Shown here piece by piece: positions 7,473 to 23,796 of a DNA stretch of 64,000 nucleotides (positions within the stretch are counted from its first letter, which is position 1; every line of letters begins with the position of its first letter). The stretch comes from Glycomyces sp. YM15 (GTDB lineage Bacteria; Actinomycetota; Actinomycetes; Mycobacteriales; Micromonosporaceae), in NCBI RefSeq assembly GCF_016918015.1, contig NZ_JAERMK010000006.1, positions 160,795 through 224,794 on the forward strand, read 5' to 3'. The translations under genes were made by a program, and so were the position numbers. The notes below the pieces were generated by a model. It saw only the letters and a list, made by a program, of their open reading frames with translations. It was not told where the DNA came from and did no database searches.

Positions 7473-8354
7473 GTGAAGCGCGCCGAGAACGTTGCCACAC
7501 ACATGTGGAACAGCGAGGACTTCGACCTTGACGCGTATCTCGAATTCCTGCACTTTGAGGGCGACCGCGCTCCGACTCTGGAGACCCTCCGGGCCCTGCA
7601 GCGCGCGCATGTGCTGACCGTGAGATGGGACACCATCGACGGATTCCTGTACCAGAAGGTCCGGCTTGACCTCGCCACGTTGCAGGACAAGCTGATGCGT
7701 CGCGGCCGCGGCGGCTACTGCTACGAACACGTCACGCTCTTCGCCGCGGCCCTGGAGCGGCTGGGCTTCCGCTTCACGGCGGTCTCGGGCCGGGTGCAGC
7801 TGGGTGCGGACAAGCCGCGCCCGGCGACGCACGCGATGCTGCTCGTGGAGGTGGACGGCGCACGCTGGCTGGCCGACGTCGGTTTCGGCGCCAGTCCGCT
7901 GGAGCCCATCGCGCTGGTCGACGGCGCAAAGAGCGAGGCGGGGCCGTGGCCGTACCTGCTGCGCTGGCAGAAGATCACTTACGGCTCATCGGGTTGGGCC
8001 GTGCACCAGCTGCGGGACAGAGCCAATCCCCAGGAGGGCTGGGAGATCCGGCAGGTCTTCACCGAGAACCCGCAGTACCCGGTCGATTTCGCAGTCGGGA
8101 ACCACTTCGTGGCCTCGAATGACCGCTCCCCGTTCGTCATCCGCCCCTTCGTGCAGCGCATGCGCACCGACCGGTACGACACGCTCGACGCGCTCGCCTG
8201 GACGACTGAGCGGGCAGGCGCGGCAGCGACCAAGGAGACGGTCAAGCCGCACGACGTGCCCGAGCTCCTCGACGACGTCTTCGGCATCCGCACGGACCCC
8301 GACGAGGCCGACCTGCTGGTGCGCAGGCTCACCGCCCTGTCCGAACAAGACTGA
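7473..8354 (+). CDS. Arylamine N-acetyltransferase (NAT), copy 1
   Basis: NAT fold with the catalytic triad visible: Cys83 in GRGGYCYE, His120 in ATHAML and Asp135 in LADVGFG (numbering from GTG 7473). The enzyme transfers acetyl or another acyl group from acyl-CoA to arylamines or hydrazines; in actinomycetes NAT homologues also release or cyclise natural products. The GTG at 7473 has a GAGCGGA 5 nt upstream; an ATG at 7503 is an alternative that matches the usual N-terminus better. It is convergent with the TfuA gene, 51 nt away, so membership of the peptide cluster is possible but unproven. A second complete copy lies at 50055. Confidence 0.92.
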   Translation: MKRAENVATHMWNSEDFDLDAYLEFLHFEGDRAPTLETLRALQRAHVLTVRWDTIDGFLYQKVRLDLATLQDKLMRRGRGGYCYEHVTLFAAALERLGFRFTAVSGRVQLGADKPRPATHAMLLVEVDGARWLADVGFGASPLEPIALVDGAKSEAGPWPYLLRWQKITYGSSGWAVHQLRDRANPQEGWEIRQVFTENPQYPVDFAVGNHFVASNDRSPFVIRPFVQRMRTDRYDTLDALAWTTERAGAAATKETVKPHDVPELLDDVFGIRTDPDEADLLVRRLTALSEQD

Positions 8355-8405: not shown

Positions 8406-9827
8406 TCAAACCTGACCGGGCGTCTCGGCTTCTTCTGCCGTTCCTGATGCCGCGTCCACTCGGAGATCTACGAGATCTGGGTTGTACTTGGCCAGAAGGT
8501 AGTACGGTCGCGCGGCTGCCACCAGGACGTCCAGGGAGGCGATGCCCCTGTCGAGCGCACGCAGTTCCAGGTCCTCCGGTTCAGTGCCCCACCGCCCGGC
8601 TAGGAATGACAGGATGCGGTCCGCCGACAGCGAGTGGATGTCGAAGTCGTCCTGGAGCTGCCGCGCCTGCTCGTTCATCTGCGCGGCAGCGCTGACGACC
8701 CGCGCCGCCTTCGCTGCCAACGGCTGGGAGCGGAGCCTGTCGAGCGCGAGGCCCTCCGGGGGTATGCCGGGCGCGATCTGGAAGCTGCGGACCAGGAACA
8801 CGGCGAGCCGGTCGCGTACCGAACGCCTGGTCCGCTCGGCCGGGGTGAGCCACGGGTCGAGGAAGTCCAGGTCCCCAGGTTCGAGTGATCGAAGGTCGGG
8901 GATGACGCCGCGGTGCTGCGCGTGCGCCAAGGCCGCGTCGAGCAGATCGAGCGCGTCGCTCCGACCGCAGGTCTCAGTACATTCGCGAGCCAGCGCATCG
9001 AAAACCAGCTCACGTTGGAAGGCGGGGTAGTCGCTTGCGAAGAGCTGGCAGGCCCGCAGGACGCTCATCTCGGCGACCGGGCCGTCGGCGGTGTCGATGG
9101 AGCGCGCACCCAGCCGCCAGCGGTGCAGGAAGACGGTGGGCGCCCGGTTCACGCGCGGCCGGGCGGCGCCCGGCCGGTCGTCGCCGAGCCTGCGCACAAC
9201 ACCGATGAGCCGCAGAGCGTCCTCACGTTTGCGATTGACGGCCCGGGTCGCGAACACCGCCCGCAGCCGCTCGAGAGTCGCATCCGGCACGTTCGCCCGG
9301 CGAGCCAGGTGGAGCGCGTCCGGGTAGGAGCGCAGCCGGTACGGCCGGTGGGCCAGCGCGGTGACGAGTCCTTCTGCGGTGGCCGTGTCGAGGACGCCTT
9401 CCCGAATGCAGAGGTCCAGCGTCGCCCGGATGTTGACCAGGGGCTCCGAGACCGCCGGGTACCCTTCGTCCGCGGGCCCGTGCACCAGCGCGACCTCATC
9501 GTCGGCGATCAGCTCGCCGAGCCGGTAGGCGCGGTAGATCCCGCCGATGCCTCCCATGCCGAGGACGTCGAGTTCGGCGGCGCGCAGCGCCCCCATGCTG
9601 GAGGCCCCCAGGACCGTCACGCCGGCATCGAGCAGGTCGAGGATCTCCTTGTGCCGCACGGACCTCGTTTGGTGGAAGTACCCGTCGACGATGCCGACCA
9701 CGTCCCCGGGGCGCGCTCCGAGCCGCAGCAGGTCGCCAGCCGCCACCGGTGGGCGCACGACGATGTCGTTCCCGGTGAGGAGGGCGGCGTCGGGCAGGCT
9801 CGGTCCGACGAAGAGGTAGCGGGTCAT
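8406..9827 (-). CDS. TfuA-domain protein, YcaO partner
   Basis: 473 residues. The N-terminal third is a TfuA domain: FVGPSLP at the start, the central GIVDGYFHQTRSVRHKEIL, then GASSMGALRAAEL and GMGGIGGIYRAYR. The C-terminal 250 residues are helical, with no motif I recognise. TfuA proteins partner YcaO proteins to install backbone thioamides, as established for methyl-coenzyme M reductase and for thioviridamide-type peptides. The ATG at 9827 is 7 nt downstream of the ycaO stop, so the two form an operon. The presence of TfuA makes thioamide formation more likely than azoline formation. Confidence 0.88.
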   Translation of the reverse strand: MTRYLFVGPSLPDAALLTGNDIVVRPPVAAGDLLRLGARPGDVVGIVDGYFHQTRSVRHKEILDLLDAGVTVLGASSMGALRAAELDVLGMGGIGGIYRAYRLGELIADDEVALVHGPADEGYPAVSEPLVNIRATLDLCIREGVLDTATAEGLVTALAHRPYRLRSYPDALHLARRANVPDATLERLRAVFATRAVNRKREDALRLIGVVRRLGDDRPGAARPRVNRAPTVFLHRWRLGARSIDTADGPVAEMSVLRACQLFASDYPAFQRELVFDALARECTETCGRSDALDLLDAALAHAQHRGVIPDLRSLEPGDLDFLDPWLTPAERTRRSVRDRLAVFLVRSFQIAPGIPPEGLALDRLRSQPLAAKAARVVSAAAQMNEQARQLQDDFDIHSLSADRILSFLAGRWGTEPEDLELRALDRGIASLDVLVAAARPYYLLAKYNPDLVDLRVDAASGTAEEAETPGQV

Positions 9828-9834
9828 CGGTTCC

Positions 9835-11031
9835 TCACAGGATCACCGGATCGCACAGCAATCCGGGGGCGACGACGCGCACGACCGGGATGCCGACTTC
9901 GTCGATGGTGTGGTCGGCGACGAGCGGGGACCGGCCGGTCACGGCCATCACCCCGGCGACGGCGTCGCGGACGTCTTCGGCGAGGCTCGTGTTCCGGACG
10001 GAGGGGATCGGGTCGTACCCGACCATGTCGGCCTGCGGCGGCGGCGCCGGTTTCGGGGTGCGTCCGGTGCGGGCGCGCCGATAGGAGCCCGAGCTGAGGT
10101 CGTCCCGGGCGGCGGCGATCTCGGTGACGCGGGACTGGGCCGCCTCGGTCAGAGCGCGGCACAGAGCGACATCCCGGTCCAGATGCGCTCCGGCCCCGGC
10201 GAACAACACCGGGAACATCTCGCTCCAGATCGTGGCGCGGAAGCAGGCGAGGCCGGTCGGGGACGGCAGGACTTCGACGCGCACGTCGATCTCGGCCGCG
10301 GCCAACTGCTCCAGCACTCCGGCCGCAGACCCGTCCACAGTGGCAAGGTCGAGGAAGCGGGGCTCGGCGGTCTCGGCGCGACTCAGCGCGTCCCGTTCGA
10401 TCACCTCGTACAGCCCGTGCAGGGCCGCTTCTGTGAACGTGTTGCCGCTTGCGAGGCCGTTGCTGTTCAACATAAACAGCGGAGGCGTCCATGTCGGACG
10501 GACCCGGCCGTCCAACTGCAGGAGGTCGCTGGGCAGGAAGGCGTCCGCATCGCCGTCGAGCCGTCTCGCCCGGGTCCATCGCAGTTTCAGGCCCGGTCGC
10601 AGGACGTGTCGCGGCTCCAGAGTCAGGTCGCTGACGCGGTAGCCGCACTCGCGCTCCATGTCGGCCACGGTGGCGACCGTGTCGCCGGGCTGCGCGCGCT
10701 CGGCGTGCCAGGACTCGATCGACTCCATCGCGGCGGAGATCTTGGCCAGTTCGGCCGTCAGGCCCTTGCCCTGGCTCACCGAAAGCGTCCATGAGTCGGG
10801 CCGCACCGCCTGGTAGATGGGGATGCCGATCTCGTCGAGCCAGGTGACGTCGGCCAGGCGGGTGATGCCGAAGACCGGGAAGAGCGGCTCGATCTCGCGC
10901 AGGGTCTCCGCAGGGGCCAGGGCCCGGTGCGTGCCCGACCAGCACGCCTTCGGGGCGTCGTCAGGTACGGCGTCCACTGCCGGACCGCCGCCGGGATCGG
11001 CGACGGCCCGGAGCTTCAATCCGTCGGTCAC
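9835..11031 (-). CDS. YcaO-domain protein (probable thioamide synthetase)
   Basis: 398 residues. It carries the YcaO ATP/Mg-binding elements: SQGKGLTAELAKISAAMESIE near residues 83-103 (read as two adjoining parts), NSNGLASGNTFTEAALHG and YEVIERDA near the middle, and a later RALTEAAQSR helix. YcaO enzymes activate a backbone amide with ATP and attack it with a nucleophile; together with TfuA the nucleophile is sulfide, giving a thioamide. The GTG start at 11031 overlaps the stop of the short peptide gene upstream (GTGA, 11028-11031), which ties this enzyme tightly to that peptide as its substrate. Confidence 0.88.
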   Translation of the reverse strand: MTDGLKLRAVADPGGGPAVDAVPDDAPKACWSGTHRALAPAETLREIEPLFPVFGITRLADVTWLDEIGIPIYQAVRPDSWTLSVSQGKGLTAELAKISAAMESIESWHAERAQPGDTVATVADMERECGYRVSDLTLEPRHVLRPGLKLRWTRARRLDGDADAFLPSDLLQLDGRVRPTWTPPLFMLNSNGLASGNTFTEAALHGLYEVIERDALSRAETAEPRFLDLATVDGSAAGVLEQLAAAEIDVRVEVLPSPTGLACFRATIWSEMFPVLFAGAGAHLDRDVALCRALTEAAQSRVTEIAAARDDLSSGSYRRARTGRTPKPAPPPQADMVGYDPIPSVRNTSLAEDVRDAVAGVMAVTGRSPLVADHTIDEVGIPVVRVVAPGLLCDPVIL

Positions 11032-11186
11032 GCGCCGTGCACGTCGGCAGGGTCGACCTCCGCGGCCTGGGAGAACTGGAAGGCCCAGGACGAGTCCTTG
11101 CGGGTCGCCGCGGCGTCCAGGTAGTCGGTCGCGCGCTTTTCGAGTTCGGCGCGAAGTTCCTCGTCGGTGGGAAGAATGAAAGCCAT
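11028..11186 (-). CDS. Putative RiPP precursor peptide (52 aa)
   Basis: Short frame ATG 11186 to TGA 11028, missed by length cut-offs. It has a strong ribosome-binding site, AGGAG 6 nt before the ATG, and its stop overlaps the ycaO GTG (GTGA). The N-terminal half is a charged helix (MAFILPTDEELRAELEK, then RATDYLDAAATRKDSS), as expected of a leader; the second half is WAFQFSQAAEVDPADVHGA, less charged and aromatic at its start. There is no cysteine and only a few Ser/Thr, arguing against azoles and lanthionine and fitting thioamidation, which needs no special side chain. A single His lies three residues from the C-terminus, of note because an EgtD-like methyltransferase is encoded upstream. 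The core boundaries are unknown. Confidence 0.75.
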   Translation of the reverse strand: MAFILPTDEELRAELEKRATDYLDAAATRKDSSWAFQFSQAAEVDPADVHGA

Positions 11187-11238
11187 GTCAAGCTCCTATC
11201 GTCAGCCGGCCTCACCGAGACGAGCCCGGGTAGGCCGA

Positions 11239-11267
11239 ATCCTACGGGATCGTGTTGCGCGACACCA
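11239..11267 (-). promoter_or_regulatory. Candidate promoter of the peptide-ycaO-tfuA operon
   Basis: On the minus strand a TAGGAT -10 element (11239-11244) lies 17 nt after TGGTGT (11262-11267), a weak -35. The gap of 122 nt between the methyltransferase stop and the peptide start holds no gene, so a separate promoter here would allow the precursor operon to be expressed independently of the methyltransferase. Confidence 0.4.
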
Positions 11268-11308
11268 GACTTGCGTTCTGACCACCGACAGTGTACGGAC
11301 GCGGCTCG

Positions 11309-12346
11309 TCAGTCCGTCCTCGTTCGCTCCGCCAGTGTTGCGGCGACCAGCACCACCTGGCCGGACTCGCCCTGTTCGAGCAGGCGCACAGCGAAGCCGC
11401 TGCGGGTCAGCTGGTCTACGAGCGCCGAACGGTCGACGTACAGGTATCGCCAAACGACCACGGTGTCGCCCGCCCTGAATGAGATGGTCCTTTGACGACC
11501 GTCCATTGTGACGTTCACGGCGACCGGTTCGCTGAACCGCACCCGGACGAACACCTCGCTGCGCTCGGGGTCGTAGCCGGTCTCAGGCACGTACCAGGAC
11601 CGGTCGATGCCCAGCAGATCAAGCCCGGCCAGCTGCTGCGGCTTGTACGGCCCGCCGACGCTGACCCGGTCCATGAACGGGGGGCGGTCGACGCCGGTGT
11701 CGATGCGCAACGTCAGCAGCAGCACGTCCCCCTCGCGCATCGCCTCGCCGACATGGCGGAGCACCCGACCGGGGTCTGCGAAGTTGTAGAGGGTCCCGCC
11801 CGCCAGGACGACGAACCGGGCCGGACCGAGGTCATCGCGGTGCGGGTCCGCGGCGGAAAGGACCTGGGCCAGATCAGAGCCGGTGAAATCCCCGCGGCGC
11901 AGATCGAAACCCTCGGCGCGCTCGGGGAACTCGGCGACAAGGTTCTCACGTGCCAGCGCAAGCAGCTCAGCACTGATGTCGATCGCCCGGTACCCCTCCA
12001 GCCGGGACCGGTCCAGCAGACGCCGCAACAGCCCGCGCACCGGACGGGTCGTACCCGGCCCGAGGTCAACGATCCGTACCGACCAGGACGCCGGCGCCAG
12101 GGCGAGCAGCTCTTCGGCATACCGCGTCAGGAGCGTGTCCATGTCGCCGAGCACCGGCGTGTTGTCGCTGTTGGACACCGTCTCACCGTTGTGCCACAGC
12201 CGGCTGCCGCCGCCGAGATACGTCAACTCGTAAGGGAATTCGGCGCGCTCGCTCAGCGCCGCGACGACGGCCTTGACCTGCGCCGCCGTATACGTCCGAT
12301 AGAACTCTTCGCCCGGCGACACCATGCGCTGCTCGATTTCCGCCAC
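11309..12346 (-). CDS. EgtD-like SAM-dependent methyltransferase in the RiPP locus
   Basis: 345 residues, related to L-histidine N-alpha-methyltransferase (Methyltransf_33, EgtD of ergothioneine synthesis). The SAM site is VDLGPGTTRP, and the later segment VVLAGGTLYNFADP corresponds to EgtD's GGTIGN region, keeping the Asn that contacts the histidine amine. No other ergothioneine gene (egtA, B, C or E) is nearby. It is directly upstream of the peptide-ycaO-tfuA genes on the same strand, so it may methylate the peptide, perhaps its His or a freed amino terminus. Start: GTG 12346 with TAGAGT 7 nt upstream suggests a leaderless transcript; ATG 12325 is an alternative. Confidence 0.82.
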   Translation of the reverse strand: MAEIEQRMVSPGEEFYRTYTAAQVKAVVAALSERAEFPYELTYLGGGSRLWHNGETVSNSDNTPVLGDMDTLLTRYAEELLALAPASWSVRIVDLGPGTTRPVRGLLRRLLDRSRLEGYRAIDISAELLALARENLVAEFPERAEGFDLRRGDFTGSDLAQVLSAADPHRDDLGPARFVVLAGGTLYNFADPGRVLRHVGEAMREGDVLLLTLRIDTGVDRPPFMDRVSVGGPYKPQQLAGLDLLGIDRSWYVPETGYDPERSEVFVRVRFSEPVAVNVTMDGRQRTISFRAGDTVVVWRYLYVDRSALVDQLTRSGFAVRLLEQGESGQVVLVAATLAERTRTD

Positions 12347-12456: not shown

Positions 12457-12867
12457 TCAGTGCACGCGCGACCGCGGATCCAGGTCTTCCCGAGAATGGA
12501 CGTCCGTCCCCTGGGTCCGGTTCACCGGGACCGTCATGGTCGGCGATCGCGGCGGGGCCTCGGGATCGGCCCGGTCGATGCGGGAGACGACGCCGATGAC
12601 GAGTGCGCCCAGGGAGCCGGCGGCGGCGCAGATGCCGATCGCGGCCGAAGGCGAGATCGCCGAAGCCAGCACGCCGCCGATGGCAATGCCCAGGCCCCGC
12701 GCGGTCTGGAGGCCCGCCGCGGCGAAACCGATGGCGCGCGAACGCATGCCGTCAGGGATGAACTGCGCGAACCGCACCTGCGCGAGCACGATGTACGCGT
12801 GGAAGACGCCCACGAGCATCCACAGTAGGACGGTGTGCCACAGGGGCGGCGCCGCCGCCGTCGCCAT
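12457..12867 (-). pseudogene. MFS transporter, C-terminal fragment
   Basis: An open frame of 136 codons that contains only the last three or four transmembrane helices of a major facilitator: the loop DGMRSRAIGFAAAGLQTARGLG and a final AAAGSLGALVIG helix, with a polar tail. The frame continues upstream to about 12937 without a start or MFS-like sequence, so the first two thirds are missing. It points the same way as the methyltransferase, 110 nt away. It may once have been the exporter of the peptide cluster, cut when the island to the right was acquired; that link is inference. Confidence 0.65.
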
Positions 12868-12951
12868 GAGCGGAACGCCGACCGCGCCGGGCGCTCGCGG
12901 CTGCCAATGACCTGGAGAACCTCGACCTTTCGCTCCCTTCCTTCAGCGACC

Positions 12952-14382
12952 TCAGTCGGTAAGCCGTTTATAGCCGGTGCTCTTGCCGCGGCCTCCGATC
13001 TGTTCGATCAGCCCGTCGGCTCGCAGGTTGCGCAGTGCGTGCCGAATTGTCGGAGGCTGCAGTCCCAGCTCGGCTTCGAGTTGGGCCACTGTCTTCAGCT
13101 CGGTGGAGAGTGCGTCGTAGACCTTGGCGGCGGTACCCTTCAGCTTCGCCCTCGGAGCCGTGCGCGCTCGGGGCAACACGGCCATGAACCGAATCGCGGT
13201 GTCGGTGTAGCGCGCATCGGGCAGGCCGGCTTCAGCCAGGGCCTGGGCGACAGTCGGTATGCCGGTGGCCAGAGCCTCGACGATACGTCCGTTGGCGGGA
13301 GTTCGGAGATACTGGCAGATGTTGAGGAGTCGGGCGTTGCGGGCCGAGCTCACCGCTTCCCTACCCAGCCTTTCGACCGTGATGCCGTACAGCCCACCAG
13401 GATTGGACACGATGAGTCGGTCCGGCCGGAGGCGTACTTCCGTAGCCATGCCGGTGGACCATGGGGACAAATCGCGGTGTATCAGCGCGTTTGCCACCAA
13501 CTCGCGGAAGGCGATGAGCGGGTAGGCGGTCTGGTCGACCACCGATCCATCGGCACCCGCCACGATGTCGGTGGCGAAGTTGGTCCTGGCCCACTCCATC
13601 GCTTGATCGAGGAGGCGCGGTATCGGTCCTGTGATCAGCCTCTGATCGCGGGCTCGCACCCCTTTCGCGCCACCTTGACCGGTATCGACGGCAGCCTGAA
13701 TGGCGAAGCGCGGGAACCACTGTTGGGGATAAGCGCCGAGAGCCAGCACTCCGGCGACCGTCGGGACGCCATGAGTGTCAAGGACGCCTGAACGCCGCAG
13801 CAGTTCATCACGATCCGTAAAGCGTCCGAGTCCCTGTGGATCACGTTCGCGGACGGTGCGAACGTATGACTCGGTAAGGACCTCATCAAGATCCTGGAAA
13901 GTCGCTCCGGTACAAGCCTGACGGTCGGAGACCGGAGCGGTTCGCTGGGCAAGGAACGCCTGCTCCTCCAGAGCGGACATTCGATAGTCGCCATCCCAGC
14001 CTCGAAGGTATGCCGCTCCGGACTTGGCGGCACGGCATGGTTTGGCGGACGGGTCGCACTCATGAACACGCGCCAGTACCACCGGAGATCCTTCAATCAC
14101 GGCGTCTTCGAAGGTCAGCCGGACCGGTGGCTCGAAGTGCCGAGCCTTCGAAGCCAGCGCCTGCTTGAGTTCTTGAGGGTCCGACAGGGCTACAGGACGG
14201 AACCCCGCGCGCTCATCGAGACCCAGAATGATCAACCCGCCTCCAGGCAGGTTCGCAAGCGCGCTCAGCGTAGACATCAGGGAATCGGGCAGCCCACCCG
14301 CAGCGGCCTTGACCTCGATGGACGCGGTGCCCCCGCCCGCCTCGCGGAGTTCGTTCAGGATGCTTTCGATGTCCTCTGCCAT
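12952..14382 (-). CDS. AlbA_2/Schlafen-type ATP-binding regulator with winged-helix C-terminus
   Basis: 476 residues from ATG 14382. The N-terminal AlbA_2 domain (ESILNELREAGGG, EVKAAAGGLP, GGGLIILGLDE) is followed by the characteristic helicase-like GHKL region (FRELVANALIHRDLSPWS, then RLIVSNPGGLYG) and a C-terminal winged helix (LKTVAQLEAELGLQPPTIRHAL split across the HTH). Such proteins are common in mobile islands and act as transcriptional regulators. No Shine-Dalgarno precedes the ATG; the promoter palindrome lies immediately upstream, so a leaderless, autoregulated transcript is likely. Lower-case alternatives up to 14400 add only six residues. Confidence 0.85.
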   Translation of the reverse strand: MAEDIESILNELREAGGGTASIEVKAAAGGLPDSLMSTLSALANLPGGGLIILGLDERAGFRPVALSDPQELKQALASKARHFEPPVRLTFEDAVIEGSPVVLARVHECDPSAKPCRAAKSGAAYLRGWDGDYRMSALEEQAFLAQRTAPVSDRQACTGATFQDLDEVLTESYVRTVRERDPQGLGRFTDRDELLRRSGVLDTHGVPTVAGVLALGAYPQQWFPRFAIQAAVDTGQGGAKGVRARDQRLITGPIPRLLDQAMEWARTNFATDIVAGADGSVVDQTAYPLIAFRELVANALIHRDLSPWSTGMATEVRLRPDRLIVSNPGGLYGITVERLGREAVSSARNARLLNICQYLRTPANGRIVEALATGIPTVAQALAEAGLPDARYTDTAIRFMAVLPRARTAPRAKLKGTAAKVYDALSTELKTVAQLEAELGLQPPTIRHALRNLRADGLIEQIGGRGKSTGYKRLTD

Positions 14383-14387
14383 GCAGT

Positions 14388-14436
14388 AAATGTAAACCAC
14401 ATAGGTTTACATTTCCGGGCATGACATTTACATTTA
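14388..14436. promoter_or_regulatory. Three-half-site operator upstream of the AlbA_2 regulator
   Basis: A perfect inverted repeat, AAATGTAAACC (14388-14398) and GGTTTACATTT (14404-14414), with a 5-nt spacer, is followed by a third half-site ATTTACATTT at about 14426-14435. It overlaps the expected promoter of the regulator gene and starts 6 nt before its ATG. The AT-rich symmetry in GC-rich DNA strongly suggests binding by the adjacent winged-helix regulator. Confidence 0.7.
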
Positions 14437-14492
14437 ATCGCTCTGCGGCGAGCCGTCCAGAGAACATGGAGGAGATGATCGAGGACGACAAA

Positions 14493-14513
14493 CGGGCCCG
14501 CTTCGCGGACCCG
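14493..14513. terminator. GC-rich stem-loop
   Basis: CGGGCCCGC (14493-14501), a 3-nt loop, then GCGGACCCG (14505-14513); one G-U type mismatch. It precedes the integrase relic and may be an old terminator; no U-tract follows. Confidence 0.35.
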
Positions 14514-14520
14514 ATGTTCG

Positions 14521-14649
14521 GATGGAGATCTACTTGCTGGCCTGTTGGAGACGTACGGGCACTTATACCCCCAGGTACAGGCCCTGCACGCCCGCCTCAC
14601 AACACCCCTCACCGCCGAGACCGACTCCGCCGCAACGGGAAGGCGGTGA
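14521..14649 (+). pseudogene. Tyrosine-recombinase (integrase) C-terminal relic
   Basis: In frame from 14521 to the TGA at 14647-14649 the translation reads DGDLLAGLLETYGHLYP followed by about 25 residues (QVQALHARLTTP...). LLETYGHLYP is the catalytic-tyrosine end motif of phage-type tyrosine integrases (compare the usual L-D-T-Y-x-H-L-F-P), including the nucleophilic Tyr. No catalytic Arg or His boxes are found upstream; the sequence there belongs to an operator and a stem-loop. This is therefore the last 40 codons of a deleted integrase, marking the edge of an older integrated element. Confidence 0.6.
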
Positions 14650-14657
14650 GAAGCGGC

Positions 14658-15554
14658 ATGTGCGCGAAGCGGATCCCAGGTACGAACAAGGGCGACTTCA
14701 ACGAGATAACCAACCGCCTGACCAGGCGAGACTTTGACATCCTCAAAGCCCTGGAGAAGCACAAGATCATGACCGCCGGCATGATCGAGGCGATCTTCTT
14801 CCCCTCCCGCCACCAAGCCGGAGCCCGCCTCCTCACGCTCCACGAGCTAGGGCTCCTCGAACGCTGGCGAAACCCGGAGAGCAAGGCGTACCGCTACGTC
14901 CTCGCCTGGAGAGGCCAGTGCGTCCTCGCCCTGATCAAGGGCGAGAAACCCCCGACGAAGCAAGCGGCCACCTTCACGGCCCAACACCAGTTCCTATCCC
15001 GGAACCGACCCCACACCGAAGGCATCAACGCCTTCTTCAGCCGCCTGCACTACTCAGCGCGGAACCACTCCGACATCAGCGTCAGCAGGCTCGAGAAGGA
15101 CCACTGGATCACGGGGATCGAACCCGACGGCAAGGGCGAGATCGCTTGGGGCGACGGCACGACGCTCCCCTTCTGGCTCGAACACGACCGAGGAACCGAG
15201 ACCCTCGCCTACCTCGCCCGCAAGATCAAGAGCTACAGGGATCGAACCATCCGCAACCCAGACCTTCGAGATTCGGTCCTGCTGATAGAGCTCCCCAGCG
15301 AGCGCCGCCTCCGCAACTTCCTACCCGTCGGCACCGAGGTCTGGAAGGCAGATCTCCCCGATTGGGAGAACCCAACACTGGCGGTCGCCGTCTGCGCTTC
15401 GACACCAAACGAGCGCACCTTCACCCACCCAGAGGAATTCCCAGACGCCTTCACCGACCGCCGCTGGAACATCCTCGGCTGGACCGGCATCCACAACCTC
15501 CTCGAACTCCCTGCCGTAGCGCGGGAGATCCGAAGCCCGAACACCGCCAACTAA
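14658..15554 (+). CDS. Replication-relaxation family protein
   Basis: 298 residues from ATG 14658. The N-terminal winged helix (RLTRRDFDILKALEKHKIM, then IEAIFFPSRHQAGARLLTLHELGLLER) and the following nuclease-like core match the replication-relaxation (MobC-like/relaxase accessory) family found in actinobacterial integrative elements and plasmids. The open frame extends to 14421, but that extension runs through the operator, stem-loop and integrase relic and is not coding-like. The gene follows the integrase relic by 8 nt. It probably served mobilisation or replication of the element. Confidence 0.75.
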   Translation: MCAKRIPGTNKGDFNEITNRLTRRDFDILKALEKHKIMTAGMIEAIFFPSRHQAGARLLTLHELGLLERWRNPESKAYRYVLAWRGQCVLALIKGEKPPTKQAATFTAQHQFLSRNRPHTEGINAFFSRLHYSARNHSDISVSRLEKDHWITGIEPDGKGEIAWGDGTTLPFWLEHDRGTETLAYLARKIKSYRDRTIRNPDLRDSVLLIELPSERRLRNFLPVGTEVWKADLPDWENPTLAVAVCASTPNERTFTHPEEFPDAFTDRRWNILGWTGIHNLLELPAVAREIRSPNTAN

Positions 15555-15646
15555 CCCCAGGGGGTCGGCCGCACAAGATCGGCCCCCACCCAACCCCACG
15601 CACAACCCCCACCCGTCAGCCACACAGGCGAAACCGCAGTTTCCGC

Positions 15647-17118
15647 AGCTTGACTACCGTAAGTAGGCGTGACGGATTGCCGACAGTTGATCACAAACGT
15701 TGCAGCGCAACGGCATTCGGATTCCGTCCGGCCCAGGTTGGCGGTGGCGCTGGGGCCGGTGTCTGGGTAGCTTCTGATCATGGTGGGTGCGGTAGCGGAA
15801 ATTGAGGCTGCTGAGGTGGCCTCGTGGCGGGATCGCCTGGGCGAATGGTTCGGACTCATCGCCGATGACTTCTTCCGGTTCGAGACCCGCAGGCATGCCA
15901 GGGAGTACCTGACGGCGCTGCTCGCACCGGTCGAGCGGAAGAACGGCTGGCAGATCGCCGAAGCGGTCGGACATGCCAGGCCCGATACGGTGCAGAACTT
16001 CCTGATGCGGGCGCTGTGGGATGCCGACCTGGTGCGTGACCGGCTCGCCCGGGCGGTCTCGGACACCATCGGCGGGGCCGATGCGGTGCTGGTCGTCGAC
16101 GACACCGGGTTCCTCAAGCAAGGCCGCTATTCGGTTGGGGTGCAACGGCAGTACACCGGAACTTCAGGGAAAGTGGACAACTGCCAGATCGGGGTGTTCG
16201 CGGCGTTGGTCAGTCCCCGCGGGCGGGCGTTGGTCGACCGGGAACTGTACCTGCCGGCCTCCTGGATAGGTGACCCCGACCGGTGCCGCCGGGCCGGTGT
16301 CCCCCAGGCGCGCCTGGACCAAGGCCTCGTCACCAAGCCCAGTACCGCCCGGCGCATGATCGCCCGGCTGCGCGATGCGGGCCTGGCCTTCGGGTGGGTG
16401 GCCGCCGACTCGGCCTACGGCTCAGACCACCTCACGCGCCGCAGCCTCGAGGAGGCGCGCATTTCCTATGTGCTGGAAGTGAAATGCAGCCAGGTCGTCG
16501 CCGACGCCGAGGGTCGGAAGCGGGAGATCGCCAACCTCATCGCCGAGGCACCGGCGGCGGCGTGGACGCGGCTGTCGCAAGGCGAGGGCGAACGCGGCCC
16601 GCGTGAATACGACTGGGCCTGGGGCCTGCTGCCGCCCGGCGGCGAGCTGCGGGCCGGCTATGCCCGTTCGGTGCTGGCCCGCCGGTCGATCGCTGACCCC
16701 GCCGACATCGCCTACTACCTGTGCTTCGCGCCCGAGGGCACCGGCAAGCAGCAGCTCATCCGCATCGCCGGTGCTCGGTGGGGCATCGAGACCTGTTTCG
16801 CCGAAGCCAAGGGGCAGTGCGGGATGGACCACTACCAGGTGCGGACCTGGACCTCGTGGCACCGGCATGTCACCTTGGCGATGTTCGCGCACGCGTTCCT
16901 GCAGACCACCGCCGCGACCGACCCAAAAGAAGCAGCGGACGCGATCGCCTCAGCGCACCGGTCATCCGGCATCTACTGGGCCTGATCCTCCCCACCGCCC
17001 GCTCCCTAACCGAGACACTCGCCGCTGTCAACTGGCAACGCCGCTGCCGCGAAAAGGTCAGACAAGCTCACTACCAGCGGAAACAACGACCACCCTGAGA
17101 ACTTACGGTAGTCAAGCT
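15647..17118 (+). mobile_element. IS701-family insertion sequence
   Basis: A 1,472-bp element bounded by perfect 18-bp inverted repeats: AGCTTGACTACCGTAAGT at 15647-15664 and its exact reverse complement at 17101-17118. It contains one transposase gene of the IS701 class. I could not find a clear target-site duplication: the four bases outside are CCGC and AGGC. It lies between the replication-relaxation gene and the low-GC HEPN-like genes. Confidence 0.88.
15780..16985 (+). CDS. IS701-family transposase, C-terminus frameshifted
   Basis: 401 residues of a DDE transposase. The catalytic acids are in VVDDTGFLKQG, AADSAYGSD and CFAEAKGQCG, in the order and spacing of IS701. The frame ends early at GIYWA. 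In the -1 frame beyond about 16955 the sequence continues with APVIRHLLGLILPTARSL and ends QRRCREKVRQAHYQRKQ (stop near 17098), the basic tail normally found in this family. A one-base deletion near 16955-16965 (or, less likely, a programmed -1 shift) therefore removed about 45 residues; the catalytic core is intact. Confidence 0.88.
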   Translation: MVGAVAEIEAAEVASWRDRLGEWFGLIADDFFRFETRRHAREYLTALLAPVERKNGWQIAEAVGHARPDTVQNFLMRALWDADLVRDRLARAVSDTIGGADAVLVVDDTGFLKQGRYSVGVQRQYTGTSGKVDNCQIGVFAALVSPRGRALVDRELYLPASWIGDPDRCRRAGVPQARLDQGLVTKPSTARRMIARLRDAGLAFGWVAADSAYGSDHLTRRSLEEARISYVLEVKCSQVVADAEGRKREIANLIAEAPAAAWTRLSQGEGERGPREYDWAWGLLPPGGELRAGYARSVLARRSIADPADIAYYLCFAPEGTGKQQLIRIAGARWGIETCFAEAKGQCGMDHYQVRTWTSWHRHVTLAMFAHAFLQTTAATDPKEAADAIASAHRSSGIYWA

Positions 17119-17232
17119 AGGCACGATAACCATGCACAGCCCGGAACCCCGAATACTTACTCCCAGGGCGAGAGATTCTGAAATCCTACGCACCCGGGTC
17201 ATCAATTCAGGAACTCATAGATTTCGACATTT

Positions 17233-18582
17233 CTACACAGTCGTTAATTTTGTCCAGGGCACTTGCGCCACGTCGCCCGCCCAGCCGTCAAGTTTCCGCA
17301 TGTCACGGTACGAACCGCTGTATCCCAATGAATGGAGGATGAGTAGCGCAAGATAATGGCGTGTACAACACCAGACTTCTCTGAGAAGGCTTTTATTTCG
17401 ATACACCGCTTCTTGCGAACCCTTCGGATGAACCAATTTGTTGCGAATCCGTGTTATAACTTCGGGACCATCCAAAACCTCATCACCGTCGCCCTCGGAG
17501 TACTCGAACATAGCCGGTGACAAGATTTCATCGACAGCCGTTGATATATTCGCTTCACGGAGAAGCAAACGAAGACGGCCTGCCGCATTCATCTTGATCC
17601 CAAGATAGCAGATCTCCTGCCGATACTTCGTCTTGCTCATTCGGCCACTAAGCGCCAATTCCTGCCATTCTAGATGCTCCAAACCCGCAGCCCCGTTAAT
17701 GATCCTTTGCTCCACGAAGCTTTGATCATTGATCGATGTGATAGCAAGCATCAACTGCAATCGAAGCTGGGCCAGCTTGTCGGGATTTGCAGTTTCCGGG
17801 ATTATTCTGCTCAAGAGGTTGTCCAGAGAATCAAGATCTCGGTCGAACCACCACCCTGACGAAATGCTTCTAACGGGATCGCAGTGCCTCACACCCCACT
17901 CCATCCAGACTGTTTCTTCCGTAGCATCTTGTCCCACCGAGAGCATCGGCGCAGCCCAACGGCCCAAGGCAAACGAGATCCCGATATGCAAAGCCTCAAG
18001 GACCGGTTGAGCTTCAATAGCCGTGAACTTTCTGTCTTCCGTTCGACGCAATTCCATAACATGTGTCATCAAATACGATTGGGAGCGCTGGGTTTCCTTC
18101 AGCACTTGACTAAGATTCGGCCTGGAGTCAAATACGATCATCCATCCATTAGATTCCATTTCAAATCGGCCAAGCCACCACCATTCCTGGCCTTCCACTT
18201 CAGTTGTCAATTTGCCCCGGCCAATCCAGTTCGGAAGATTGAACCAATGAACGACCATGCGGTCAAGCAGTGCATCATCCGGACCATGCGACATACCATT
18301 CGAGATTCCACGATCGGGGCTAAGCCAAAATCCCGCCAGTCTCACATCCCCCGAGGGTTTCCGTAGATACAGTTCTACGTCGGACTCATTCAGATCTCTC
18401 AAAGGGCTACTAGTATTGATATTCCACTCGATACCTGGCCGCGGCGAGCAGACAAGTTGCACTTTTCCGTCGATGTCCGCATCTTGGACACCCCCGATCA
18501 AACCGTCAAATAGAATGACTGGCTCGCCTGGCCTGTTAAAGGGATAAACGGGCACCAGGGGTGTAGCTGCTCCAATACTCAT
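17233..18582 (-). CDS. Unknown protein with C-terminal HEPN-like RNKLVH motif
   Basis: 449 residues from ATG 18582 (a TTG at 18609 is possible). I do not recognise the family. The N-terminal half is beta-rich and Trp-rich (GQEWWWLGRFEME); the C-terminal half is helical and contains R380-N-K-L-V-H385 in IRNKLVHPKG, the RxxxxH active-site pattern of HEPN ribonucleases. No membrane segment or signal is seen. Base composition is clearly more AT-rich than the surrounding genes and codon use is relaxed, indicating recent transfer. It is divergent from a second HEPN-like gene at 18868; the pair may be a defence or toxin system, by inference only. Confidence 0.6.
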   Translation of the reverse strand: MSIGAATPLVPVYPFNRPGEPVILFDGLIGGVQDADIDGKVQLVCSPRPGIEWNINTSSPLRDLNESDVELYLRKPSGDVRLAGFWLSPDRGISNGMSHGPDDALLDRMVVHWFNLPNWIGRGKLTTEVEGQEWWWLGRFEMESNGWMIVFDSRPNLSQVLKETQRSQSYLMTHVMELRRTEDRKFTAIEAQPVLEALHIGISFALGRWAAPMLSVGQDATEETVWMEWGVRHCDPVRSISSGWWFDRDLDSLDNLLSRIIPETANPDKLAQLRLQLMLAITSINDQSFVEQRIINGAAGLEHLEWQELALSGRMSKTKYRQEICYLGIKMNAAGRLRLLLREANISTAVDEILSPAMFEYSEGDGDEVLDGPEVITRIRNKLVHPKGSQEAVYRNKSLLREVWCCTRHYLALLILHSLGYSGSYRDMRKLDGWAGDVAQVPWTKLTTV

Positions 18583-18867
18583 GGGTCGATAATCCCAGCT
18601 TCGAAGCAAGCGCGCGACCCCATTCGCCAGATTGCCAGATACGTCAATGGCGGGCGTAAGTCAATTTGCCGGATTTATGTTAGTGTGCTACACCGTTTCC
18701 CTCGTCTGCCCCGCACCCGGACCGTCAATGTGACGCTGCCAGTCATCGACACCGGACAAGCACTGCACTCGGTCGCAATGGCTTGTCCCTCGGCGAGGCC
18801 GATGGGTTCCACTAGCCCGCTCAAACCGGGTCGACGCAGCGGACCTGAAACCAGATACGCTCTGACC

Positions 18868-19992
18868 ATGGCCACACCCCTGAGAACTGCAGAATGGCCC
18901 GTAGACGCGGCCGCCCAGCGCGGAATGGCCACGCGATTCATCATTGCTCAAGACGCGCGATGGGTTCAGGATGTTGTCTATTCGGCGCGTAAATCAAGGG
19001 AGGCTAGTGCCTACACCGCCCTACTTCTGGGCCACCACTTCGTACGGATCGCGTACGAAGGGGCCGCAGCAATTCGGTCTGGTAATCCTCAGGTCGGCAT
19101 CCCAGTGCTGGCCGATATACTCAAGGAGCGGTTCCAGTCAATCACCGCGCGAGCCCGTCACATGGCCAAGCTTCTCGACGACAAAAAGAAGACAAATGAG
19201 GATATTCTTGCGGCGATCGAGCTTGCGCTGGAGCGTATGCGTGGCGTGTTTACAGGAAGAGTGCCACGATGGTTGCGCTGGATGGAGACAGACCTCGGAA
19301 TATATCAAATCGGACATTCAATTGTCGGGACGTCAATTTCAGCCGCCTACCGACTAGGTCTTGATGGAGCCAATGAAAGGTCAATGTTCGGCGAGGCTAT
19401 CAGCGACGTGACAGATGAGTGGGCCAGTACTATGGCAGTTCTCATGGGGGCGGACCTGCAGCTACCCGAGCCGCAGGCCTCGCTTCATCTTTCTGCTCAC
19501 AAAGTTATCGGGAAGAATAGGCGTTCAGATCGCTTTCTCGCCAGTCGCTATGAACCGAAATTCCCGGATAGGCTCAAATTGCTCCTCCTCATGATCGAGG
19601 GTGATCTGAATTGCACAAGGCTCTTCCTGCCGCAGACAGCTAAGGGACATGAGGATTCTGTCTTTAGAGCACGAGTTGTAACACTATATCATTCGCTAAC
19701 CGCTCTAAAAGAAGTTTCAAAACGACATCTGTCGCTGGACTCGTCAGCCATGCGTAACATTCGAGTACTCTTGGAGAGCGAATCAACACAGCGTCTTCTT
19801 TCTCAAGGCGGCACGCGGATTCGAAATCGATGCATGCACTACGAGATCCCAAAAAGTGTAATCCCGATCGATCCGGATCGCCCGTTCTTCGGAATCGTTG
19901 AGGCTGTCTATCCTGGGGCGACTTTCGAGGGCTTTGACAGAGACGTTGCCGATGTGACAGAACGGCTGGCAAAGGTATTCAGCACCTGGTGA
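18868..19992 (+). CDS. Unknown helical protein with HEPN-like RNRCMH motif
   Basis: 374 residues from ATG 18868. The frame is open to a GTG at 18685, but the extra 61 residues are not protein-like. The protein is largely helical and of unknown family; near the C-terminus it has R319-N-R-C-M-H324 in IRNRCMHYEIP, again matching the HEPN RNxxxH pattern. No Shine-Dalgarno is visible; TACGCT about 7-12 nt before the ATG would fit a leaderless transcript. Like its divergent neighbour it is AT-richer than flanking DNA. ATG 18925 is an alternative start. Confidence 0.6.
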   Translation: MATPLRTAEWPVDAAAQRGMATRFIIAQDARWVQDVVYSARKSREASAYTALLLGHHFVRIAYEGAAAIRSGNPQVGIPVLADILKERFQSITARARHMAKLLDDKKKTNEDILAAIELALERMRGVFTGRVPRWLRWMETDLGIYQIGHSIVGTSISAAYRLGLDGANERSMFGEAISDVTDEWASTMAVLMGADLQLPEPQASLHLSAHKVIGKNRRSDRFLASRYEPKFPDRLKLLLLMIEGDLNCTRLFLPQTAKGHEDSVFRARVVTLYHSLTALKEVSKRHLSLDSSAMRNIRVLLESESTQRLLSQGGTRIRNRCMHYEIPKSVIPIDPDRPFFGIVEAVYPGATFEGFDRDVADVTERLAKVFSTW

Positions 19993-20076
19993 GGTTTCCG
20001 AACCTGAAGCTGATCTTACGAAGAGCGCAAACCACGCGTCCTGCCTCTAACCATAGTCGCTTGGCAATCTCGCATA

Positions 20077-20556
20077 TTAAGTTCGTTTTGCCCCACTAGG
20101 CCAGATGATCGTTACGGGGATTCCGCGGGTCTGGGCCTGGGCTACTGCGTCGGCGGTCCCGCCCCTGGCTGCTGGGAGTTGGCCGTCCCAGACGGCGAAA
20201 AGGTGGTCGATCGAGGTGAGGATGTGATCGTTGGATGCTGCGTAGGCTTCTCGTCCGCCGGTCTCGAAGGACATTGCATTGACCTCGGCGGCTTGTGAGA
20301 GCAGGCGATCGTAGGCGGGCTGGTCCTCTGGGTCGACCTTCTTGTCGCGGTAGTCCGCGGAGGATACGACCACTGTCAGCTTGCCGCCGGCGTCGAGGAC
20401 TGCTTGGGCGAAGATCGAGTCCGCGCCTGCTGCGAGGCAACTGAATCCGACCAGGTTTCCGTCCTGGAACTCCTCGAGCGCTTCGCTGATGGCGGCTCGC
20501 ACCAGGTCAACGGTTTCCGGGGAGAGGTTCATGTGCCCGGTGATGCCGATCCGCAA
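20077..20556 (-). CDS. SLOG/DprA-like Rossmann protein
   Basis: 159 residues from TTG 20556, which follows AAGGAG by 7 nt; the longer open frame lacks a comparable signal. The N-terminal GITGHMNLSPE and the GFSCLAAGADSIFAQ segment are typical of the SLOG superfamily (LOG/DprA/YspA-like), whose members bind nucleotide-derived ligands and often act in nucleotide-signal defence or toxin systems. C-terminal FAVWDGQ and VTIIWPSG fit the Rossmann core. It is 22 nt downstream of the XRE-TPR gene on the same strand, so the two are probably co-transcribed. Its ligand is unknown. Confidence 0.75.
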   Translation of the reverse strand: MRIGITGHMNLSPETVDLVRAAISEALEEFQDGNLVGFSCLAAGADSIFAQAVLDAGGKLTVVVSSADYRDKKVDPEDQPAYDRLLSQAAEVNAMSFETGGREAYAASNDHILTSIDHLFAVWDGQLPAARGGTADAVAQAQTRGIPVTIIWPSGAKRT

Positions 20557-20578
20557 TTGGTGCTCCTTATGGATGAGG

Positions 20579-21769
20579 TCAGGCTGCCAAGGCCGTGTCG
20601 ATGTGGTCTCGGAGTTCTGCGACGCAGGATTCGTTCTCGTAGGTCGCGGCGAGGGCGCGCAGGTTCTCGAGCTTGGTTCGGACGTGGGAAGAACCAGTCC
20701 TCGTCGCGGTTTCGACTGCTCGGTTGCCTTGCATGCAGGCTTCCTCAAGTTCCCCTTGCAGCATCCGCGCCTGTGCGAGCCCGAGTTGGTCTAGGGCGAG
20801 TGATCGGAGTTTCTGCGGGTCGCGTGCAGTGATGGCGGCTTCGATGGAAGAGGCGGCTTCGGCTGCGAGGCTTCGGTCTTCATGCGCCATCTCGAGGAGT
20901 CGTGCTCCGGTGGTGCCGGCGAACTCGGCCAGGTCGAAGGAGCTTCCACCGTCGTCGTTCGCGTCGGCGAGCAACTCGGCCGCTAGATCAGTGCTTCTGC
21001 GGAACTCGTTGATGTCGCTGAGACTGGACTTCGACCATGCGTGGCGGGTGTATACCTTCGCCATCAGCGCCGCGGAAACATGGCCGGAGGCGCGTTCAAG
21101 CGCACGGCTCGTGAGTTCCTGCGCCTCGCCAGGATTGCCGAGAATGAGTTCCTGGCGGCCCATGCCGACAAGCGCCTTCACCTCGCCGTAGCGATCGCGA
21201 GCCTCAACTGATGCGTGCAGCGCGAATTCGTAGCACCGGCGGGCCTTGCCGTCGTCGCCCGTGTCCCAGAACATCGTGGCCGCCGTCTGCGAAAAGCGGG
21301 CCATGACCTTGAAGGTTCGAGCACGACGGGAGCGGTTTCGGTCGACTTCCGCCAGTTCCGCAAGTTGGACGATCTGAACGAGGACGGCTCGGAGTTGAAG
21401 ACCTCCTCCGGTGCGCTCGTTCCAGTCTCGGTAGTGAGTCGCCAGCGTTTCCAACTGATCGAGCTCGGTGTCGCCGAGGGACTTGAGGCCGTTGTCTGGG
21501 AGGAACGGTGATCCGGCGATGAGACCCGGCACCGCTGCGGCTCCGAGTGAGAGCAAAGCCCTGCGCCGCATGTCGTCCTCCTCGGCAAGTCGTCGACGTT
21601 CCTGACCGACGACTTCGGTATACGCCACTATCACTTCGCTCGGGACAGGGCGCTGATCAGTCTCGTAGAACCCTAGAGCTGCTTTGCTCCAGGGCAAGCG
21701 GCGGGCCATGTCGCCCAAGCTGAGGTCAACAGCGGTTCGCGCCGCTCGCAGTTGTTGTCCTGGGGTCAT
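20579..21769 (-). CDS. XRE family regulator with TPR-like repeats
   Basis: 396 residues from ATG 21769 (start chosen at MTPGQQLRAARTAVDLSLGD, the normal beginning of this class). Residues 1-60 form a Cro/C1-type helix-turn-helix (SLGDMARRLPWSKAALGFYE); the remaining 330 residues are paired helices of TPR type, as in actinobacterial signal-responsive regulators. GTCTACA repeats just upstream could be its own operator. It is followed by the SLOG gene. It may sense a cytosolic signal or peptide; this is inference. Confidence 0.85.
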   Translation of the reverse strand: MTPGQQLRAARTAVDLSLGDMARRLPWSKAALGFYETDQRPVPSEVIVAYTEVVGQERRRLAEEDDMRRRALLSLGAAAVPGLIAGSPFLPDNGLKSLGDTELDQLETLATHYRDWNERTGGGLQLRAVLVQIVQLAELAEVDRNRSRRARTFKVMARFSQTAATMFWDTGDDGKARRCYEFALHASVEARDRYGEVKALVGMGRQELILGNPGEAQELTSRALERASGHVSAALMAKVYTRHAWSKSSLSDINEFRRSTDLAAELLADANDDGGSSFDLAEFAGTTGARLLEMAHEDRSLAAEAASSIEAAITARDPQKLRSLALDQLGLAQARMLQGELEEACMQGNRAVETATRTGSSHVRTKLENLRALAATYENESCVAELRDHIDTALAA

Positions 21770-21770
21770 C

Positions 21771-21822
21771 TGTAGACACCTTGTAGACGGTTTGGGTCTT
21801 CCTGTCGGCTTCGCAGTAGACG
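21771..21822. promoter_or_regulatory. Repeated GTAGAC boxes upstream of the XRE gene
   Basis: TGTAGAC occurs at 21771-21777 and 21782-21788 (11-bp period, one helical turn), with a further GTAGAC at about 21817-21822. They lie directly before the XRE start on the minus strand. Helically phased direct repeats suggest an autoregulatory site. Confidence 0.45.
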
Positions 21823-21905
21823 ATGCTACAAGCATGGCTCCCGAGAGTCATCCACCGCTTACACATGGGCCCTGGCTGCTCAGGCGGTGCGCAAGCCAGT
21901 GTTGT

Positions 21906-21943
21906 GCGGCCCGCCTTCGGGTTCCAAGCTTCGGGCGGGCCGC
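21906..21943. terminator. GC-rich hairpin
   Basis: GCGGCCCGCC (21906-21915) and GGCGGGCCGC (21934-21943) form a perfect 10-bp stem with an 18-nt loop. It sits 25 nt before the start of the next gene, so it could block read-through or attenuate that gene. Confidence 0.5.
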
Positions 21944-21968
21944 CTCACCAGATCCGCCAAAGGGAGAA

Positions 21969-22565
21969 ATGGTGACGGCTCAGAGACTACGAGTCAGAGA
22001 CGAGAAGGGCAACCGTGCGATGCCTGAAATCCTCGGCTCATGGCTGACAGGTCGGGGTAACAAGCTCACGGTCATGGCGCGGCGGGGCACCGGCTATGCA
22101 TCCGTGTGGCTCAACCAGCAAGGGACACCGGTGAAGATCGGGTACGCGCTGCACGCGGGCGGTGTCGTCCGTGAAGTCCGGTGGGAAGAGCCGTGGCGGG
22201 AGCAGACCGACACCTGGAAGTCGCAGCAGCGGAGCCAGATTGCCGCGCTCGTTGCCGCCTGGCACGCAGACCGTCCGGAGCCACGCGAACCCGAGCCGCT
22301 TCCGAACAGTGTGGTCGGAACGTTCGAGATCGACGGCTTCCGCTTCGCCGTCGAGCCCGTCACGGCCGCTGAGCATGTGGTGCTCTGTCTCGTCAATGCG
22401 ATGAACGAGCTGACTCCCATCGCCGATCTCCTCCATGAGAGCGGTCGAATCTGCGGGATGGTCACCCGTCCCAGATGGAAAGCCACTCCCGAAGAACGGC
22501 GGCGCCAATGGCGAGCCGAAGTGGAGGCGATCCTCCTTCGTGCCGTCGAACGCGGCGCGCTCTGA
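21969..22565 (+). CDS. Hypothetical protein next to XRE/SLOG genes
   Basis: 198 residues from ATG 21969, or GTG 21972, which is better spaced from GGGAG. I do not recognise a family. The N-terminal 70 residues look like a small beta-rich domain (NKLTVMARRGTGYASVWL), and the C-terminal 70 residues are helical and charged (KATPEERRRQWRAEVEAILL). It is divergent from the XRE gene and starts a co-directional run with the dioxygenase and NUDIX genes, but a strong hairpin follows its stop. Confidence 0.65.
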   Translation: MVTAQRLRVRDEKGNRAMPEILGSWLTGRGNKLTVMARRGTGYASVWLNQQGTPVKIGYALHAGGVVREVRWEEPWREQTDTWKSQQRSQIAALVAAWHADRPEPREPEPLPNSVVGTFEIDGFRFAVEPVTAAEHVVLCLVNAMNELTPIADLLHESGRICGMVTRPRWKATPEERRRQWRAEVEAILLRAVERGAL

Positions 22566-22577
22566 CCCTTCTCCCCC

Positions 22578-22607: not shown

Positions 22608-22639
22608 ACCCCAGACTTCCTCTTGATTTGGAGATCATT

Positions 22640-23793: not shown

Positions 23794-23796
23794 TGA

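Follow-up and report, generated by a model that had tools for sequence, protein, structure and literature searches.

The DNA analysed here, which we call the window, is a stretch of 64,000 nucleotides (nt) from Glycomyces sp. YM15 (contig NZ_JAERMK010000006.1, positions 160,795 to 224,794) that carries on its minus strand a compact cassette of four genes, transcribed in the order methyltransferase, a 52-codon open reading frame (ORF), ycaO and tfuA. The first gene (11309..12346) encodes an S-adenosylmethionine (SAM) methyltransferase of 345 amino acids with the EgtD fold and a changed side-chain pocket (Pfam Methyltransf_33, 7e-14). The short ORF (11028..11186), assigned as a precursor peptide gene by its homologues and a peptide profile, follows after 122 nt. 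The Shine-Dalgarno sequence AGGAG (11193..11197) lies 6 nt ahead of its ATG start, and its TGA stop overlaps the GTG start of ycaO as GTGA; an earlier note made from the sequence of the window had pointed to both signals, and both are present. The adjacent genes ycaO (9835..11031, 398 amino acids; Pfam YcaO, 1.6e-60) and tfuA (8406..9827, 473 amino acids; Pfam TfuA, 8.9e-43) belong to the families expected for YcaO-TfuA thioamidated ribosomally synthesized and post-translationally modified peptides (RiPPs).

Three segments stand out within the 52 residues of the peptide. The leader motif LPTDEELRAE (11145..11174) follows the pattern [LFM]P[TS]xx[EQK]LRx[ED] in an alignment of ten intact copies. 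The segment KDSSW (11085..11099), of the form [KR]D[ST]xW, is a proposed core site linked to the methyltransferase by co-occurrence. The C-terminal block VDPADVHGA (11031..11057), in which P, A, D and V are invariant in all ten intact copies, is proposed to be a thioamidation region or a follower.

The short gene and its homologues

Identity to the window YcaO separated its relatives into two groups, one at 68-80% and the other at most about 53%. The close group comprises nine loci: the window and those of Glycomyces harbinensis (79-80% identical to the window YcaO), Actinoallomurus purpureus, Nonomuraea roseoviolacea, Streptomyces sp. NEAU-Y11 and four further genomes (G752, G758, G872 and G828). 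In a tree of 34 rows from a longer list (the YcaO alignment had 10 rows), the nine loci form a clade with support of 100/100, whose members span four named families.

The clade is rare. The window genome has one copy of this YcaO. In the family of the Nonomuraea genome the clade ycaO was found in 6 of 341 genomes (nine passed the cut-off, three of them at 51-55% identity), and in the genus of the Streptomyces genome in 1 of 392 (three passed, two at 52-53%). In a class sample of 394 genomes two passed, one of them at 52%, and only the window's own genome had the clade gene. A YcaO match at E <= 1e-20 was present in 40 of 200 genomes of the window's own family; the clade members among these were the window and G049 only, the latter at 80% identity and on the same contig as G. 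harbinensis. The plasmid records listed (15 of 293 and 5 of 171) held only more distant YcaO loci, and the best of the five, N. gerenzanensis with 48% YcaO identity, did not carry the peptide.

The distribution of the short ORF follows that of this clade. A hidden Markov model (HMM) built from six copies of the peptide matched directly ahead of ycaO in all nine loci, one copy being broken; outside the clade no match was better than E = 2.3 (92 locus records, in which the clade loci are present several times over). A peptide profile scan of 338 genomes from the family of the Nonomuraea genome, blind to ycaO and scoring at most 20 candidates per genome, gave matches in six; these are the six with the clade ycaO, and the peptide begins at most about 460 bases ahead of it. 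In the three clade genomes outside that family the peptide occurs at the ycaO locus only, and viral contigs gave no match. The earlier note had proposed a set of precursor, YcaO, TfuA and EgtD-like enzyme and suggested a test of whether homologous peptides always precede ycaO-tfuA. The peptides were found only beside homologous ycaO-tfuA pairs, with no match elsewhere in the 92 locus records or the 338 + 3 genomes. The short ORF had no family match in Pfam or NCBIfam, and two homologues of the window peptide likewise had no match in NCBIfam, which includes the nitrile hydratase leader peptide (NHLP) model TIGR03793.

Eight loci supply the ten intact copies, which are 46-54 codons long. The Nonomuraea and Streptomyces loci (two of the nine) hold two tandem copies each, the additional complete copy starting about 360-460 bases upstream. 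Residues M1, P6, L11, R12, P46, A47, D48 and V49 (window numbering) are invariant in the ten copies, and their nucleotide alignment contains gaps of 6, 9, 12 and 15 only, all multiples of three. From these sequence comparisons, the 52-codon ORF is a real and conserved gene.

It is very improbable that the ORF serves only as an upstream frame whose translation is coupled to, or controls, that of ycaO. The GTGA overlap in the two Glycomyces loci would suit such a role, as would palindromic or hairpin-prone DNA that, by eye, recurs ahead of the start in several loci. However, in seven of the nine loci the frame stops ahead of the ycaO start set by the gene caller (outside the Glycomyces loci, all ycaO starts are gene-caller choices), the two tandem loci have a complete copy further upstream, and both ends of the peptide are conserved with gaps in threes. 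The overlap stressed in the earlier note occurs in the two Glycomyces loci but not elsewhere, so it is no general feature of the family.

Inspection by eye of the upstream DNA gave two recurring elements. The palindrome GATCTTY-N4-GAAGATC lies upstream of the precursor start in four loci (L081, L082, L083 and L084), and a GCCGGT...ACCGG hairpin lies closer to the start in L081, L082 and both Nonomuraea copies (L033). Either could possibly be an operator or an RNA element.

Conserved ends and a fast-evolving middle

The precursor keeps its two ends, an LPTxxELRxE leader and a [VL][DE]PADV C-terminus, around a middle that evolves fast. Between the two Glycomyces species, the proportions of synonymous (pS) and nonsynonymous (pN) differences, given as pS/pN, were 0.18/0.14 in codons 2-17, 0.20/0.39 in the middle and 0.20/0.11 in the last ten codons, and pN exceeded pS over the whole frame. 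Among 11 pairs, pN was above pS in ten for the middle block and in none for the last ten codons; codon bias may explain why synonymous differences are so few at the 3' end. These numbers show a constrained C-terminus and a rapidly changing middle; the leader keeps its key residues, though its conservation is not clear from the substitution counts. The corresponding pN/pS of YcaO, TfuA and the methyltransferase was 0.24-0.76. The ratio of nonsynonymous to synonymous substitution (dN/dS) over the whole frame was rejected as proof of coding because clear purifying selection was not seen, and the coding claim is therefore carried by the gap lengths and the residue conservation. As far as sequence can tell, the pattern fits a RiPP precursor, though it differs from what a conserved protein classically shows.

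The cysteine content of the peptide had also been raised in the earlier note, which took the lack of Cys as a distinguishing mark. This is true of the window peptide and four others, but five of the ten intact copies have one Cys, in a [KR]DTCW variant, and the idea of a cysteine-free class was rejected. The residue ahead of Trp varies among S, C, G and V. The broken copy is that of Actinoallomurus, in which a stop takes the place of the conserved Trp; because its frame is broken, this locus entered neither the precursor alignment nor the counts of substitutions. It also has a tandem repeat of a 75-nt unit that covers the KDSxW region (unit counted by eye).

Similar leaders were found ahead of different sequences at more distant loci. 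In 2 of 40 non-clade YcaO loci (L086 and L089; about 20 others, mostly non-actinobacterial, were left out of the count), a short ORF ahead of ycaO opens with M-x(1-8)-[LIVMF]P[TS]xx[EQ]L and continues with a different sequence. This pattern, drawn from the clade and matching eight of its nine loci (G. harbinensis has K for E/Q), occurred in 2 of the 185 upstream frames and in none of the 2879 remaining ones from the same 40 loci (Fisher p = 0.0036). A similar ORF in the sister branch (L085) has IPEGAEL, which the pattern does not count. Several other distant loci have longer precursor-like ORFs, and the one tested against the NHLP leader model, that of L009, gave a weak match below the cut-off.

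The peptide could instead be a carrier, scaffold or recognition partner of YcaO-TfuA whose true substrate is another protein, as in the thioamidation of McrA, but we consider this improbable. Conserved residues at both ends, most of all at the C-terminus, and the resemblance of YcaO to the McrA-modifying type would agree with a carrier. The tandem copies, the internally repeated core region, the fast-evolving middle and the similar leader ahead of other cores at two more distant loci fit a substrate instead, and by eye no residue-adding scaffold ligase recurs nearby.

Two of the distant loci showed other arrangements. Three tandem short ORFs of 36-38 amino acids (L087, 4762-5160), each opening with MEILKLQA and having Thr/Val-rich ends, lie ahead of another ycaO-tfuA pair and are candidates for another precursor family. 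Ahead of a further pair (L090, 4605-4994), an ORF of 129 amino acids has four imperfect repeats around NHN (by eye) and is a candidate multi-core precursor.

An EgtD-fold methyltransferase beside the precursor

The predicted structure of the methyltransferase has the EgtD fold, superposing on 4uy6 with a Z score of 28.6 at 3.3 Å over 299 residues, with the next fold at 17.9. The model was built from eight sequences and has a mean predicted local distance difference test (pLDDT) of 78, with weak stretches at residues 54-65, 167-171 and 219-232. In the alignment (8 rows), N166 of EgtD is kept as N188, and M252, E282 and S284 are replaced by V265, W299 and Y301. We take these three EgtD residues to be those of the histidine pocket. 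Against the EgtD model TIGR03438 the enzyme scored 33.1 bits (cut-off 290.9), and another gene of the window genome passes this cut-off with 306.6 bits. The methyltransferase has the EgtD fold but is not an EgtD, because of its low score, the replaced pocket residues and the separate gene that passes the cut-off. The EgtD residue numbering was fixed by the variant of entry 4pip, which, by the title of that structure, carries M252V and E282A and was crystallised with Trp.

Homologues of 65-68% identity stand directly ahead of the precursor in six other loci, which brings the total to seven of nine, from at least three named families. The two loci in which the enzyme is missing are those of G. 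harbinensis, where the best match (26%) lies elsewhere in the genome, and Actinoallomurus, where it reaches 38% over 82 residues. The enzyme is accordingly not essential to the set. The EgtD-like methyltransferase of the earlier note thus stands as an enzyme with the EgtD fold beside the precursor in seven loci, but neither as an EgtD nor as a constant member. A search at E <= 1e-30 in 317 genomes of the family of the Nonomuraea genome returned four clade genomes and one relative at 29%; G828, which has the methyltransferase at its locus, was not among the matches and is taken to lie outside the drawn sample.

The presence of the enzyme goes along with that of the [KR]D[ST]xW segment. All nine intact precursors from the seven loci with the methyltransferase have the segment. 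In G. harbinensis, where the enzyme is missing, the intact precursor keeps the leader and the C-terminus but not the segment. The methyltransferase thereby appears linked to [KR]D[ST]xW, on one or two events.

It is doubtful that the methyltransferase is an unrelated neighbour, acting for example on a free amino acid, and that the real cassette is precursor-YcaO-TfuA. Its absence from two loci and the 122-nt gap, in which the precursor may have its own promoter (by eye), speak for this, but its position directly ahead of the precursor in seven loci across families, its near restriction to clade loci in the 317 genomes, and the joint absence of enzyme and segment in an intact precursor argue that it belongs to the cassette.

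The predicted product and its relation to known systems

YcaO and TfuA appear to be of the thioamidation type, and the predicted thioamide rests on this homology. YcaO scored 189.8 bits against the McrA-glycine thioamidation model (cut-off 365) and 75.4 bits against the azole model (cut-off 219.25), which places it under both cut-offs with the higher score for thioamidation; among solved structures, MJ1094 is its best relative. TfuA residues 1-218 superpose on the solved TfuA 6xp8 from Methanosarcina acetivorans (Z 27.2, 2.2 Å, 213 residues). S77, present in 32 of 34 aligned proteins, and K200, present in at least 90%, align with identical residues of 6xp8 and are candidates for the Ser-Lys pair that hydrolyses the ThiS thiocarboxylate (PMC13185837). 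The TfuA alignment took 34 of roughly 70 rows and left out the G828 protein, whose gene runs off its contig.

From residue 219 to about 460, TfuA is confidently predicted and mostly helical (residues 219-473 correspond to window 8409-9173). The aligned actinobacterial TfuA proteins have this long helical extension in common, with nearly invariant W326, W413 and D426-R427-G428. Among the matches that Foldseek and VIA-align 2 listed for the full-length protein, none fell solely in the C-terminal part.

We consider it likely that the cassette makes a backbone-thioamidated, probably methylated RiPP. The precursor of 46-54 amino acids, encoded just ahead of YcaO-TfuA as the comparisons support, would be read through its N-terminal LP[TS]xxELRxE, which its conservation suggests to be the leader for this YcaO-TfuA branch, with the C-terminal extension of TfuA as a candidate leader binder; no separate gene for a RiPP recognition element (RRE) was seen with the cassette. 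By homology, TfuA would free sulfide from the thiocarboxylate of a ThiS protein whose gene lies elsewhere, while YcaO would use ATP to convert one or more backbone amides to thioamides. The thioamide most likely lies in or near the [VL][DE]PADV block, a part retained even in loci that have lost the methyltransferase. The EgtD-fold enzyme, judging by the co-loss, would N-methylate the peptide, and not free histidine, at or because of [KR]D[ST]xW. A protease from outside the cassette would, as a guess, trim the product.

A more specific and on balance unlikely scheme is that an EgtD-family enzyme was re-tooled from free histidine to a ribosomal peptide and, after thioamidation and trimming, methylates an N-terminus at [KR]D[ST]xW, giving a peptide betaine with a backbone thioamide. 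Possibly the Trp itself would be the methylated residue, a reading prompted by the engineered EgtD variant that was crystallised with Trp. Such a product, if real, would be a new class of RiPP modification.

It is improbable that YcaO modifies the peptide to an azoline or another YcaO product and that TfuA has drifted to another role. Five of the ten intact precursors have a Cys, the nine with [KR]D[ST]xW have Ser or Thr, and YcaO lies below the cut-off of the thioamidation model, all of which would allow an azoline. The position ahead of Trp varies among S, C, G and V, however, no dehydrogenase or E1-like partner recurs (by eye), the thioamidation model gives YcaO a higher score than the azole model does, and TfuA retains the solved fold with the candidate Ser-Lys pair.

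Several observations weigh against a thioamidated and methylated RiPP. The pN/pS of the whole short frame is often near or above 1, not low, because the middle evolves fast, and the leader block had pN below pS in six of 11 pairs but above it in five; the protein-like substitution expected in the earlier note was found in the last ten codons and in the gaps in threes but not over the whole frame. The repeat of Actinoallomurus takes in the KDSxW part and not the PADV part, which would fit PADV as a follower and not as the thioamidated core. The methyltransferase is missing from two loci, and its tie to [KR]D[ST]xW consists of one clean co-loss (G. harbinensis) and one damaged locus (Actinoallomurus), where a second, leaderless copy retains KDSHW despite the lack of the enzyme. 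Finally, inspection by eye, with Pfam on eight neighbours, showed no recurrent gene for a transporter, a protease or self-resistance next to the cassette.

Flanking genes were rejected as further parts of the cassette, as by eye they did not recur in other loci; only the two most similar Nonomuraea-type genomes have flanking genes in common. The arylamine N-acetyltransferase gene (7473-8354), convergent with tfuA, was not seen by eye in the other clade loci and for this reason is probably not a cassette part. On the other side, between the cassette and a gene for an extracytoplasmic function (ECF)-type sigma factor, window 12457-28158 holds a short frame like the major facilitator superfamily (MFS), an AlbA_2/HATPase protein, a Replic_Relax gene, a DDE transposase and a large serine recombinase, and may be a mobile element adjoining the cassette. 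In G. harbinensis a similar-looking sigma gene and the precursor are separated by about 5.5 kb that contain transposase-like frames (by eye).

The cassette is very small, with four genes, and its carriers include Glycomyces harbinensis, Nonomuraea roseoviolacea and Streptomyces sp. NEAU-Y11. With its recognisable leader and its natural variants, some having the methyltransferase and others lacking it, the system allows direct tests of how YcaO-TfuA recognises a leader when no RRE gene is present and of the proposed change of substrate in an EgtD-fold enzyme.

Hundreds of precursor families are on record from genome mining, most of them lacking a known product. Earlier surveys count 74 networks of peptides next to tfuA in Actinobacteria (PMC6511847) and, overall, 797 families of precursor peptides (PMC8120280). 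Set against the main texts of these studies, the cassette is a new precursor family and architecture inside the known YcaO-TfuA RiPP kind; possibly the family is already a row in a genome-mining supplement. The main text of PMC6511847 makes no mention of Glycomyces, Nonomuraea or EgtD, and that of PMC8120280 none of Glycomyces, Actinoallomurus or histidine (EgtD was not searched there). Literature searches gave no paper combining EgtD, YcaO and RiPP, and none with Methyltransf_33 and ribosomally synthesized; on EgtD-like peptide methylation, PMC11193748 and PMC13245600 hold passing mentions only.

Compared with EgtD, the ergothioneine histidine N-alpha-methyltransferase (4pio, 4uy6, 4pip), the cassette enzyme has the same fold over nearly the whole chain and keeps the N166 equivalent, but has V, W and Y at M252, E282 and S284. 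Its TfuA differs from 6xp8 by about 240 extra, mostly helical residues common to the other aligned actinobacterial proteins. Among whole systems, the thioviridamide-like thioamitides also rely on a YcaO-TfuA pair acting on a RiPP precursor, and we assume that their precursor and further tailoring genes differ from those of this cassette. Thiovarsolin-type and other actinobacterial YcaO-TfuA clusters found with RiPPER share the short precursor gene beside adjacent ycaO-tfuA; their thioamidation potentially needs no particular side chain, their precursors are often unannotated, and precursor type follows the TfuA tree (PMC6511847). The present cassette differs from them in a precursor without a Pfam or NCBIfam model and in the adjoining EgtD-fold methyltransferase. 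Characterised YcaO-TfuA RiPPs comprise four earlier classes and the std cluster of Streptomyces thermodiastaticus (PMC13174530). In the latter, the precursor thioamidated by YcaO-TfuA is likewise short and has a conserved C-terminal motif, and Asn can be the thioamidation site; its own features are a multinuclear non-heme iron-dependent oxidase (MNIO) with an RRE partner, a protease-carbamoyltransferase and the motif SNKEWQE, which does not occur in the ten intact precursors of our cassette (PMC13174530).

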